Shown piece by piece: positions 647 through 36,137 of a stretch of 37,472 bases of DNA. This DNA is from Oscillospiraceae bacterium. GTDB taxonomy: Bacteria > Bacillota > Clostridia > Oscillospirales > CAG-272. Positions within the stretch are counted from its first letter, which is position 1. The number at the start of each line of letters is the position of its first letter. The stretch covers positions 1-37,472 of the forward strand of contig SVTA01000009.1 in NCBI GenBank assembly GCA_015064005.1, read 5' to 3'. The position numbers and the translations under genes are program-made. A model generated the notes under the pieces. The model did no database searches. It worked only from the letters and a program-made list of their open reading frames with translations, and was not told the origin of the DNA.

Positions 647-675
647 TTGACAAGATGCCGAAAAAGTGCTATACT
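647..675 (+). promoter_or_regulatory. Sigma-A type promoter
   Basis: TTGACA (647-652), 17-bp spacer, TATACT (670-675). Confidence 0.75.
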
Positions 676-681
676 GAAGCT

Positions 682-840
682 GCGACACAAGTGTATAAGC
701 CAAAAAGCGGTATGCGTTTTACTCGGATAAAATGCATGCCTTGTTCCGTATATCGCTTTTTGATGACAGATTGCCGAAGCACTGTGTTGCCGCAATGGGG
801 CTTTGCATGGTTTGGTGCGCAGCTCCGCTGCGCACTTTTT
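682..840 (+). ncRNA. Candidate structured leader RNA or small RNA ending in an intrinsic terminator
   Basis: Predicted start ~682. Stem 682-689+691-693 / 780-782+783-790; inner 15-bp stem AAAAAGCGGTATGCG (702-716) / CGTATATCGCTTTTT; terminator GTGCGCAGC (815-823) / GCTGCGCAC (827-835) + TTTTT (836-840). Class not recognised. Confidence 0.5.
815..840 (+). terminator. Intrinsic terminator immediately upstream of the second LRR gene's RBS
   Basis: 9-bp perfect stem GTGCGCAGC-tcc-GCTGCGCAC followed by TTTTT. Confidence 0.8.
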
Positions 841-860
841 CATAGGAAAGGATGAAGGAC

Positions 861-2048
861 ATGAAGAAACTGATCGTTGTACTGACCCTGCTGGCGTTGC
901 TTTTGCTTTGCGCCGGATGTCAGAAGCACACCCACACCTTTGGCGAATGGACGGTGGTCACCGCCGCCACCTGCACGACGGACGGAGAGCAAAAACGCAG
1001 CTGTGAATGCGGGGAGACCGAAACAGACGTGCTTGCCGCAGGACACGTTCCCGGCGATCCTGCCACCTGCACCGCAGCACAGATCTGCACTGTCTGCAAC
1101 GCGGAGCTGGCAGCTTCTTTCGGCCACGATTTTGTGGATTACGAGTGCACGCGCTGCGACGAAACGCAGTACAGCAAAGGTCTTGTCTTTGAGCTGAACC
1201 AGGACGGTGAAAGCTATGCCGTCAAGGGGATGGGCGACTGCACCGATACGCAGATCATTGTCCCCAGAACCCATGAAGGAAAGCCTGTGACGGCGATTGC
1301 GGGGGGTGCGTTTTGGTGTCAGAATACACTGCAGTCCGTTGTGATCTTGGACAGTGTTACGAGTGTTGGCAACATGGCATTTGCAGACTGCGAGGCGCTT
1401 ACCTCCGTTTCCTTACCCTCCGGACTTGAAAGCATCAGCGACAGTGTTTTTTCCGGTTGTACCAAGCTTCTTACCGTCAATATTCCGGACAGCGTTACCA
1501 CGATCGGCAGCGAAGCGTTCAACGGTTGCTCCCGCTTGAGATCCATCACGCTGCCGGATGGTGTAACCGGTATTGGCGCAAAGGCATTTGCAGGCTGCTC
1601 CGGTATTGGCTCCATCGCGATACCGGAAGGCGTTATTTGTATCAGTGACGGTGTGTTTAATAATTGCAGCAGCCTTGCCACCGTCACGCTTGGCAGCGCT
1701 GTCACCGACATTGGCGAGTTTGCCTTTTCCGGCTGCCATCGTCTGGTTTCGATCATGCTGCCGGAGAGTGTCAGTCGCATCGGCCCTTACGCCTTCTACG
1801 GCTGTAGCAGTCTGACCTCCCTGATGATCCCCAAGGGCGTTGCCAGCATTGGCTATTCGGCCGTTTCTTCCTGCAACGCCTTTGCAACCGTTTACTACGG
1901 TGGCACAGCGGAGCAGTGGACGGCGGTGCAGATCGGTATGGATAACAACCGCCTCAATTACGCTGCCCGCTATTACTACTCTGAAACCCGGCCCAGCGAG
2001 GCAGGGAACTACTGGCACTGGGTGGACAGCGTGCCCACAAAGTGGTGA
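861..2048 (+). CDS. Lipoprotein with Cys-rich N-terminal repeats and BspA-like LRR domain
   Basis: MKKLIVVLTLLALLLLCAGC lipobox; HTHTFGEWTVVTAATCTTDGEQKRSCECGE and similar Cys motifs; LRR_5 repeats; C-terminal RYYYSETRPSEAGNYWHWVDSVPTKW. Start 861 preferred over 852 because AGGAAAGGA is well spaced upstream. Confidence 0.88.
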   Translation: MKKLIVVLTLLALLLLCAGCQKHTHTFGEWTVVTAATCTTDGEQKRSCECGETETDVLAAGHVPGDPATCTAAQICTVCNAELAASFGHDFVDYECTRCDETQYSKGLVFELNQDGESYAVKGMGDCTDTQIIVPRTHEGKPVTAIAGGAFWCQNTLQSVVILDSVTSVGNMAFADCEALTSVSLPSGLESISDSVFSGCTKLLTVNIPDSVTTIGSEAFNGCSRLRSITLPDGVTGIGAKAFAGCSGIGSIAIPEGVICISDGVFNNCSSLATVTLGSAVTDIGEFAFSGCHRLVSIMLPESVSRIGPYAFYGCSSLTSLMIPKGVASIGYSAVSSCNAFATVYYGGTAEQWTAVQIGMDNNRLNYAARYYYSETRPSEAGNYWHWVDSVPTKW

Positions 2049-33700: not shown

Positions 33701-33733
33701 AAAAGGTGCCCTCCAAGGGAGGGCACCTTTTTT
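33700..33733. terminator. Bidirectional intrinsic terminator
   Basis: AAAAGGTGCCCTCC-aag-GGAGGGCACCTTTT (33701-33731) plus further T's; between convergent genes. Confidence 0.88.
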
Positions 33734-34928
33734 ATGGAACGATTTCCAGCGTTTTCATATCCAGGGTCACAGTTTCGCTGTGGTGATAATGTCGCTTTGC
33801 GTGCTCCAGAAGCCACGTGCAATAGGGATGCTTGCCAAAGCGCTCGTAGAGCCTTTCCACCGTTGTGGCGTCGGCCTTTTCCGTCTGTACGATGTCTAAG
33901 GGGTAAGCCCAAAGCACCACCTCGGGATCGATCCTTTCATGAAAGGGAATGCTGCCCACCGAGCCGTGGTGCGAGACCTGCAGCACGTCGCTCTTCAGCT
34001 CGTCACCGTACATGAGTGCCATTTGATCACACAGCGCAAACCATGCGTCCGTAGCAAAAAAAGCCGTTTTTCCGCCCTCAAAGCGCAAGCGAAGGCTGCA
34101 GGCCGTGGCGTTGACACCAAGCATCTCCTGCGGCCAATAGTCCTCCCATCCAAACATCACATCCACGTCGCAGCCGGGCAGGTGCAGCGTTTCGCCGCTG
34201 TGCATTTCCCATCGCTTTGAAAGAGGGAACAGCTCGCGGGTGATATCCCGCATCCGATTCTGCCAGCGAATGGTGCGTCCCTGCTGACCGACCTTTGTAA
34301 AGGTGACCATATCGTCTGAAAAATCAGGGAAATCGTAGCCAAACAGCTCAACCTCGACCCGATCGGCATAGAAAAGCAAAAACTCCTGACAAAGGTGGAT
34401 ATGATCGTTATGCGCGTGAGAAATCAGCCACGCGGCAATGCGGGGCTTTTCGTGATGCGCCGGCTTTTTCTCATACAAAAAGTCAAGCAGATACGCGCGA
34501 TCGACCTCGTTGTCCACACCGCCGTCGATCAGCAAAAAACTACCGTCAGCGAGCTGAATGATGTCGGATTGACCAATATCACTTAATTTGATCTGCGTCA
34601 AGGTGGGAGTTTGAATCGGCCGGGCGGTACAGGGCTCTGTCGGCGGCAAAAAGGAGCGTGAGCCGTGGGTGACGCGCATTTCACCAAGGGCGGGATAGAA
34701 TGCGAGATGCGCCTGAAAAAGCGGCGTCGTGTAGGTGGCAAATTGATTTTCAGCCAAGGTGCGCTTGAAATAGAGAGCAAAGCCCGCTGTCTCTAAAGCG
34801 GTACAGTATCGGGTAAAATCTTCCGTTGTTGTCTCCGCAAAGCGCAGCACCTCCCTCCCGTGATAGGGATTCGAGTGACGGTCGCAGGGCTTCAGCGGCG
34901 TGGCGGAAGAGGCAAAAAAGGGATGCAT
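33732..34928 (-). CDS. ComEC-like metallo-beta-lactamase fold protein (copy 1)
   Basis: 398 aa; AWLISHAHNDHIHL, FFATDAWFALCDQM, LQVSHHGSVGS; N-terminal ~110-aa extension. Confidence 0.85.
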   Translation of the reverse strand: MHPFFASSATPLKPCDRHSNPYHGREVLRFAETTTEDFTRYCTALETAGFALYFKRTLAENQFATYTTPLFQAHLAFYPALGEMRVTHGSRSFLPPTEPCTARPIQTPTLTQIKLSDIGQSDIIQLADGSFLLIDGGVDNEVDRAYLLDFLYEKKPAHHEKPRIAAWLISHAHNDHIHLCQEFLLFYADRVEVELFGYDFPDFSDDMVTFTKVGQQGRTIRWQNRMRDITRELFPLSKRWEMHSGETLHLPGCDVDVMFGWEDYWPQEMLGVNATACSLRLRFEGGKTAFFATDAWFALCDQMALMYGDELKSDVLQVSHHGSVGSIPFHERIDPEVVLWAYPLDIVQTEKADATTVERLYERFGKHPYCTWLLEHAKRHYHHSETVTLDMKTLEIVP

Positions 34929-34940
34929 GACGGTTCCTCC

Positions 34941-36137
34941 TTACGAAATCACTTCAAGGGTCTTCATATCCATCGTTACGGTCTCACCGTGATGGTAGTG
35001 CCGTTCCATGCGGTCCAGTAGCCAACAGTTGGGCGCGAACTGGCGGGCAACGGCAATGGGCTTTTCTCTGTCCGGCACAACGATGGGCTCGGGGGAGAAT
35101 ACCCGCTCCGGCGACTGCGGCCAAAAAACCACCTCGGGTCGCACCTTCTCATAGAAGGGAATGGAGCCGCCGGCAAGGCCGTGATGGATGGCCTGCAGCA
35201 CGTCACTCTTCAGCGTGTCACCGTAAACTGTTGCCATTTGGTCACAAAGCTGCGCCCACGCATCGGTGGGCAGCATCAGCTTTTTGCCGCCCTCGAAGCG
35301 CATATCAAGGCAAAATGAGGTCTGATTGACGGTTTTCATCGGCTGCGGCCAAAAGTCCTCCCAAGTCATCAGAACCGAAACCTCACAGCCCGGCAACAAC
35401 AGCCGTTGACCGCTGTGCATCAACCAGAGAGCAGTAGTGGGAAACTGCTCGTCCAGGATGCGCTTGATGCGCTTCTGTCTGTTTTTCTGCGCCACCTCGG
35501 TATCGCTTTGAATGATATCGCTTTCGAAATCGGGGAAATTATAGCCGAACGTCTGAAGCTCGATCTGCTTGCCGTGCGCCTGCAAAAAATCCATACAAAG
35601 GTTCATATGATCGTCGTGAGCGTGAGAAATGAGCCAAGCGGCAACACGGGGCTTCGGATGGTGAGAGGGCTTGTGCGCGTAAAGAAACGCCAGCAGATTG
35701 TCACGATCGGTGCTGTACATCTTACCACCGTCAATGATCAGATAGCTGCCGTCGGTGAGCTGTACCACGTTGGACTGCCCGCCGTTGCTGAGCTTCATCT
35801 GCGTATAGGTGGGCACGTCAATGACCGCCTCGGCCTCGGGCATCTCCAAAGGGGGCAGATAGCTGAGGCATCCGTGGCAGACGCGCATTTCACCAAGCAC
35901 GGGATAAAAGGCAAGGTGTGCCTCGTAGCACGGAGTGGTATAGGTGGCAAAACGGTTGCCTGCCACCTCTCTCTCGTAATAGGGCACAAAGCCCGCGGTC
36001 TTCAGCGCCTCACAGTAAGCGGAAAACGCCTCGCTTGTCACCTCAGAAAATCGCAACACTGTAGAGCCTTGCTTGGGGTTTTCATGGCAGTCGCAGGGCG
36101 TTAGCGGAGAGAGGGGGGAGATAAAAAAGGGATGCAT
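34941..36137 (-). CDS. ComEC-like metallo-beta-lactamase fold protein (copy 2, paralog)
   Basis: 398 aa; AWLISHAHDDHMNL, MLPTDAWAQLCDQM, LQAIHHGLAGGS; collinear with copy 1 over its length. Confidence 0.85.
   Translation of the reverse strand: MHPFFISPLSPLTPCDCHENPKQGSTVLRFSEVTSEAFSAYCEALKTAGFVPYYEREVAGNRFATYTTPCYEAHLAFYPVLGEMRVCHGCLSYLPPLEMPEAEAVIDVPTYTQMKLSNGGQSNVVQLTDGSYLIIDGGKMYSTDRDNLLAFLYAHKPSHHPKPRVAAWLISHAHDDHMNLCMDFLQAHGKQIELQTFGYNFPDFESDIIQSDTEVAQKNRQKRIKRILDEQFPTTALWLMHSGQRLLLPGCEVSVLMTWEDFWPQPMKTVNQTSFCLDMRFEGGKKLMLPTDAWAQLCDQMATVYGDTLKSDVLQAIHHGLAGGSIPFYEKVRPEVVFWPQSPERVFSPEPIVVPDREKPIAVARQFAPNCWLLDRMERHYHHGETVTMDMKTLEVIS

Follow-up and report, generated by a model that had tools for sequence, protein, structure and literature searches.

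The window, by which we mean the whole stretch of DNA analysed, is 37,472 nt from an Oscillospiraceae bacterium (assembly GCA_015064005.1, contig SVTA01000009.1, positions 1 to 37,472, forward strand). At 647-843, a promoter close to the consensus leads into a rod-like RNA, whose intrinsic terminator lies 20 nt 5' of a gene for an LRR (BspA-type) lipoprotein. The parts are as follows.

647-675, forward strand: promoter, with the -35 box TTGACA (647-652), a 17-nt spacer, TG at 667-668 and the -10 box TATACT (670-675).
679-693, forward strand: 5' arm of the P1 stem, GCTGCGACACAAGTG, at or beside the predicted transcription start.
702-722, forward strand: segment A, AAAAAGCGGTATGCGTTTTAC, the upper strand of P2 and the 5' strand of P3; candidate partners C (in the rod) or B (in a hairpin).
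727-741, forward strand: segment B, ATAAAATGCATGCCT, the 3' strand of P3 with a conserved bulge; candidate partners A (putative ON state) or D (pseudoknot, putative OFF state).
746-761, forward strand: segment C, CCGTATATCGCTTTTT, the 3' strand of the rod; candidate partner A.
780-793, forward strand: 3' arm of P1, CACTGTGTTGCCGC, placed by P1 covariation.
795-808, forward strand: segment D, ATGGGGCTTTGCAT; candidate partners T5 (as antiterminator) or B (as anti-antiterminator).
814-826, forward strand: segment T5, GGTGCGCAGCTCC, the 5' arm of the terminator; alternative partner D.
827-840, forward strand: segment T3, GCTGCGCAC, with the U-tract TTTTT, the 3' half of the terminator, placed by a terminator scan.
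844-860, forward strand: ribosome-binding region, AGGAAAGGATGAAGGAC, assigned from its sequence.
861-2048, forward strand: BspA-type LRR lipoprotein gene, beginning MKKLIVVLTLLALLLLCAGC and carrying a lipobox; assigned from its translation and an LRR_5 match (E 1.2e-57).

A second BspA-type LRR gene lies upstream on the forward strand (1-561, its start beyond the contig), with a hairpin of its own at about 594-617. Elsewhere in the window, the reverse strand carries two adjacent paralogous genes of equal length (33732-34928 and 34941-36137; 398 aa, 57% identical). The first shows a weak match, short of the cut-off, to metallo-beta-lactamase; Pfam matches nothing in the second.

The promoter, rod and terminator had been picked out in a sequence-only reading of this DNA, and all three are present where it placed them. 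The promoter matches the consensus at 11 of 12 positions and is the best of six hits in the first 2400 bases, where shuffled sequence yields 2.3. The rod comprises an outer stem (679-693/780-793, its pairing imperfect in this copy) and a 15-bp inner stem (702-716/747-761), followed by the terminator stem at about 814-835 and five Us; the 164-nt RNA folds to -61 kcal/mol, whereas dinucleotide shuffles average -47.5 +/- 4.0 (z -3.35), with 1 in 200 reaching so low a value. Two details of that reading need amending. It put the start of transcription at about 682, exactly at the base of the stem; the first base of the P1 inverted repeat is in fact 679, which lies 4 nt past the -10 box, and a start at 682 would therefore leave the first three bases of P1 untranscribed. 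It also described an isolated transcription unit, whereas the terminator, the ribosome-binding site and the ATG (861) are contiguous with the gene, as they are in most relatives.

Within the window, the duplex energies of the segment pairs are -17.6 kcal/mol for A-B, -15.6 for A-C, -12.6 for B-D, -15.0 for D-T5 and -18.2 for T5-T3, which are the energies of a near-balanced switch. B-D and D-T5 are only moderately beyond chance in this single copy, with 1.25% and 2.4% of shuffled partners equally good.

The element is far from confined to one gene. When the window's own genome was searched at the DNA level, three more copies came to light, 74-82% identical, and relatives yielded others. Our first covariance model, R1, was built on ten copies and spans P1 through P1'; it placed the element in 22 of 59 related genomes, drawn from 12 of the 39 genera in this sample of relatives. 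The window's genome accounts for six of its matches, one being a copy's echo on the reverse strand. An improved model, R2, added a sixth place in that genome (G000:C23:29-193, near a contig end), bringing the copies there to six, and found the element in 35 of 147 genomes sampled evenly across the class Clostridia (27 of 107 genera) and in none outside the class in a phylum-wide sample of 150. In one genus, 10 of 12 genomes carry it; G198, the one-contig genome of this element-rich genus, gave no R2 match. The count reaches 29 matches per genome, and a few of the matches in these maxima of about 20-29 may be the same palindrome read again from the other strand. Most of the genomes sampled are draft assemblies. 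A pattern scan of named genomes returned at least 120 matching stretches; among the 80 matches listed, all are Clostridia-type records, nearly all metagenome-assembled, labeled Oscillospiraceae, Ruminococcus, Monoglobus and others, and largely from the guts of ruminants, deer and rabbits. The same pattern had no match in 2.9 million viral contigs, which leaves a phage origin unsupported. Judged by these searches, the element is a large, uncatalogued family with hundreds of copies across the class Clostridia.

Its copies are mostly very diverged from one another. Divergent copies in other families, at L264, L208, L259 and L267 (near 793-946 and 1501-1605), have quite different B strands in place of the UGCAUGCUC core; B-D and A-B complementarity appears to be kept in them, and they possibly form a sub-class. 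About 900 bases downstream of the copy at L259 there is an Rfam match to RT-14 RNA (L259:1823-1999, forward strand; 59.5 bits, above the cut-off).

What the copies share is a near-invariant layout. Across 210 distinct copies the order is -10 box, P1 stem, rod, terminator and start codon: a -10-like box sits no more than 10 nt 5' of P1 in 209 of them, an intrinsic terminator was detected between promoter and start codon in 200 of the 205 with enough sequence, and the U-tract lies a median of 22 nt from the start codon (interquartile range 19-38). An ORF follows directly in 189 of 205 usable copies, and an RBS is present in 166. This arrangement bears on a further suggestion of the sequence-only reading, that of a small RNA, perhaps 6S-like. 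Possession of its own promoter and terminator, together with a rod broken by internal loops, would suit a free-standing transcript that happens to lie before genes. Such a transcript would hardly be expected to precede an ORF so consistently or to occur as many paralogues in one genome, and the conserved D-T5 antiterminator described below would have no role in it. At the window site, moreover, there is no match to 6S RNA (RF00013); the genome's best, itself below the Rfam cut-off, lies elsewhere, at G000:C52:467-689. We therefore discarded the 6S identity and regard a stand-alone RNA of any kind as very improbable.

Some copies are arranged in tandem, each with its own promoter and terminator (L076, L080, L111 and L190 are examples). 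At G355:C45:9578-10217 and G355:C29:1370-1776, both on the reverse strand, two or three elements follow one another in the same orientation over a span of a few hundred bases, which is unusual for attenuators.

Comparison of the copies brings out the helices clearly. In 101 aligned copies, 92.6% of the cells in the 29 pairs of P1, P2 and P3 hold standard pairs (76.4% when shuffled); double changes occur in 23 of the 29 pairs, and doubly changed cells number 450 against a shuffled mean of 131. Sliding the partner by one to three columns brings pairing down to 32-63%. This alignment was fitted to the model and contains four reverse-strand rows, and the margin far exceeds either effect. P1 is paired in 97.8% of its cells, with double changes in 9 of 11 pairs, and helix 3 in 93%, with double changes in 7 of 8. 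The arms of P1 can be seen to change together by eye: TGCGACACAA with TTGTGTCGCA, TGCCACACAA with TTGTGTGGCA, CGCTACACAA with TTGTGTAGCA and TGTCACACAA with TTGTGTGACA. The conservation and covariation on which the original lead had been staked are thus plainly there in the relatives, and the structured domain is, as in riboswitches, both conserved and coupled to an expression platform.

The heart of the matter is what follows P1. Segment D (consensus GGAGCUAUGCG) comes first, separated from the terminator by UUUUU(CGG). Its sequence complements that of T5, with which it would form an antiterminator, and a search for just such a partner of the terminator's 5' arm had been proposed from the sequence; D is also complementary to B, the conserved strand inside the rod (AAAAAUGCAUGCUC). 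B is pairable in turn with the preceding strand, A, and A with C, on the opposite side of the rod. Joint changes in B and D are readily found, as in UGCACUCUC with GGAGUUGUGCG, CGCGUGCUUC with GAAGCUUCGCG and GUGUUUCCUU with AAGGAACAC.

We put these pairings to an alignment-free test, in which the duplex energy of each copy's own segments is set against that of partners dealt among copies, with 5000 shuffles and 170 non-redundant copies (162-165 for A-B and A-C). Each pairing proved stronger within copies than between them, and no shuffle in 5000 equaled any of the four: -7.55 against -5.98 kcal/mol for A-B (z -11.0), -9.48 against -5.16 for A-C (z -25.2), -10.73 against -8.71 for B-D (z -15.1) and -12.69 against -10.19 for D-T5 (z -14.0). 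P1a-P1b (z -36) and T5-T3 (z -28.0) behaved as expected, and T5 accordingly has two conserved and mutually exclusive partners, D and T3. Non-partner controls lay near zero (A-D 1.8, B-T5 0.2, C-D -2.3, B-C 1.9), and reversal of D still left z at -2.5 to -3.2 (-2.5 for B with reversed D). The shuffle takes no account of phylogeny, yet the non-partner controls from those very data hardly depart from zero; since kinship alone would move them too, it is an unlikely explanation of the four signals. Because the pattern that recovered about 80 of the 210 copies leaves little of B free to vary, the variation in B stems from the remaining copies; in 71 variant-core copies, B-D and D-T5 each give z -11.7. 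Weaker signals join P1a to T5 (z -5.6) and P1b to T3 (z -7.3), and in many copies the strands of P1 look like the arms of the terminator, possibly reflecting a further competing fold outside the model proposed here.

With pseudoknots approximated as duplexes, the mean energies are -16.5 kcal/mol for the terminator, -12.8 for the antiterminator and -10.8 for the B-D duplex. Of the terminator and antiterminator hairpins, the former is the more stable in 149 of 169 copies, but the latter is completed earlier in transcription and, in truncated folds, is able to form before T3 exists. These modeled energies suit a kinetic switch.

Among 128 downstream proteins, Pfam finds LRR_5 in 33, with a tail that takes in the Cu amine oxidase N-terminal domain, SLH, M23 peptidase, D-alanyl-D-alanine carboxypeptidase, MazE-like, HTH, AMP-binding and zinc ribbon domains. 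A simple hydrophobicity rule assigns a signal-like N terminus to 90 of the 111 downstream proteins that are 150 aa or longer. For the other ORFs in this DNA, a background with some spurious ORFs among them, the figure is 125 of 453. A lipobox is present in 25 of the 111 and 21 of the 453. The regulated genes would seem, then, to encode mainly secreted or lipid-anchored surface proteins. Of 29 pairs of copies that share at least 85% identity, 17 have unrelated proteins downstream even though element and terminator remain alike, and the element thus behaves as a portable module.

A dispersed, multicopy palindrome, near-identical in front of unrelated genes with diverged flanks, might also bring to mind a MITE-like or other mobile element whose apparent structure is simply that of inverted repeats in DNA. 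The strand-specific order of promoter, rod, terminator and gene is fixed, however, and four competing pairings covary outside any terminal repeat; the copies are mostly very diverged, and the pattern is absent from the viral contigs. Of all the explanations we have considered, this is the one to which we give least credence.

We think it very probable that the element represents a new class of transcription attenuators that act in cis and are widespread in gut Clostridia, a class of orphan leaders that resemble riboswitches. Conservation, covariation and the covarying antiterminator and anti-antiterminator strongly support a cis-acting attenuator, much as the sequence-only reading had it when it offered a riboswitch or attenuator as one candidate. 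That observation is confirmed as correct; it understates what the leader contains, the competing pairings having been missed.

How might such a leader work? Its segments, A, B, C, D, T5 and T3, form a chain in which most have alternative complementary partners, and by their complementarity they fall into two mutually exclusive sets: A-C with B-D and T5-T3, or A-B with D-T5. From these we infer an OFF and an ON state, a choice made during transcription and a signal that shifts it. RNA polymerase would start at the foot of P1. In the OFF state, A would pair with C to complete the rod, freeing B to form a pseudoknot with D just past P1; D, held by B, would be unable to capture T5, and the T5-T3 terminator would form before the gene. 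In the ON state, A and B would stay together as a long hairpin, leaving D free to join T5 as the antiterminator, and polymerase would read into the gene. Because the antiterminator can form before T3, sequestration of D by B would favor termination. Some signal, be it a ligand, a protein, an RNA or the rate of elongation, would tip the balance between the two.

The nature of that signal separates two narrower forms of the attenuator reading. In one, a riboswitch in the strict sense, the P1-P2 junction and the core would make up a small-molecule aptamer that stabilizes one of the folds. Several residues are conserved beyond the needs of pairing (an A at 95% in the P1-P2 joining strand, CAA at 91-95% just 3' of P1 and a U-rich stretch at 91-95% U after B), and the many copies per genome, the tandem copies and the portability across unrelated genes would all fit. 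Against this, strictly conserved unpaired bases are few and, surface proteins apart, no single pathway is prominent downstream; we put such an aptamer at rather less than an even chance. The surface-protein regulon suggested c-di-GMP as a ligand. We set it aside: a GGDEF domain was not found in three element-bearing genomes, G000 (the window's genome), G017 (of the window's genus) or G352 (with 21 element matches), incomplete as these genomes are, which makes c-di-GMP unlikely, and c-di-GMP-I riboswitches occupy separate loci.

In the other form, a protein or small RNA acting in trans would bind P1 (ACACAA/UUGUGU) or the loops and shift the A-B/A-C balance. ACACAA/UUGUGU is kept in nearly all copies of P1 while the other P1 positions covary freely, which is more than pairing needs, and the breadth of the regulon resembles that of a global regulator. 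P1 also begins at the predicted 5' end of the transcript, though, and its conservation could stem from the needs of initiation. We hold this form to be a shade less probable than the aptamer. A third idea was a leader peptide, for which D supplies an ATG in some copies; the lack of conservation of that ATG led us to drop it.

If the attenuator reading is right, the element would rank among the larger RNA leader classes that the RNA-family catalogue still lacks; its bearers, mostly uncultured, are common in the guts of ruminants, deer and rabbits. Surface LRR proteins and lipoproteins make up its regulon, and it is plausibly through these that the bacteria encounter host and diet. We would venture, tentatively, that this is a new riboswitch or other signal-responsive RNA class which, at up to some 20-30 copies per genome, coordinates a large part of the surface proteins of uncultured gut Clostridia to one signal. 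With two conserved folds, the switch is directly testable, and covariation that makes visible both alternative pairings of several segments offers a rare case for the study of co-transcriptional strand exchange.

How does the element compare with what is known? No riboswitch class had been recognized in it by inspection, and Rfam 15 agrees: at the gathering threshold, no family falls on the element in the window or in 20 divergent relatives, and at E up to 1 only chance hits do so at nine loci. Among the papers that were open to searching, we found none joining such an RNA to LRR/BspA genes or to these taxa. Fremin and Bhatt (2021; PMC8040213) give 3161 candidate RNAs from human microbiomes in their supplements, where the element may possibly already be listed under a number.

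With 6S RNA the element shares a rod with internal bubbles; unlike 6S RNA, it is multicopy and tied to genes. The c-di-GMP-I and -II riboswitches of Clostridioides difficile control many scattered genes, including those for adhesins and other surface proteins (PMC11477304), a regulon much like the element's. In sequence and fold the two differ, and a covariance search with RF01051 gave no match in G000 and separate loci in some element-bearing genomes. T-box leaders (RF00230) are likewise Firmicute leader RNAs that choose between terminator and antiterminator, but the element's genes, as a group, are not related to amino acids, and no copy scanned matches RF00230, in a scan that was positive elsewhere in L263; a T-box identity is thus unsupported.

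Closer in logic are the trp-type leader attenuators, in which segments 1-2-3-4 choose between antiterminator and terminator. The element, too, relies on mutually complementary segments for that choice, but its chain is longer, and in one of its steps a strand within the closed rod would form a pseudoknot with the segment that follows the rod. No conserved leader ORF or peptide was seen by eye among the copies, and the element's length varies freely. The fluoride and preQ1 riboswitches are transcriptional riboswitches that use a pseudoknot, and in the element, likewise, termination would depend on a pseudoknot formed with sequence close to the terminator; the element differs in having no known aptamer or Rfam match and in that each of its promoters abuts P1. 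The type of system, attenuator or transcriptional riboswitch, is a known one; the class, and its multi-way exchange of strands, appear to be new.
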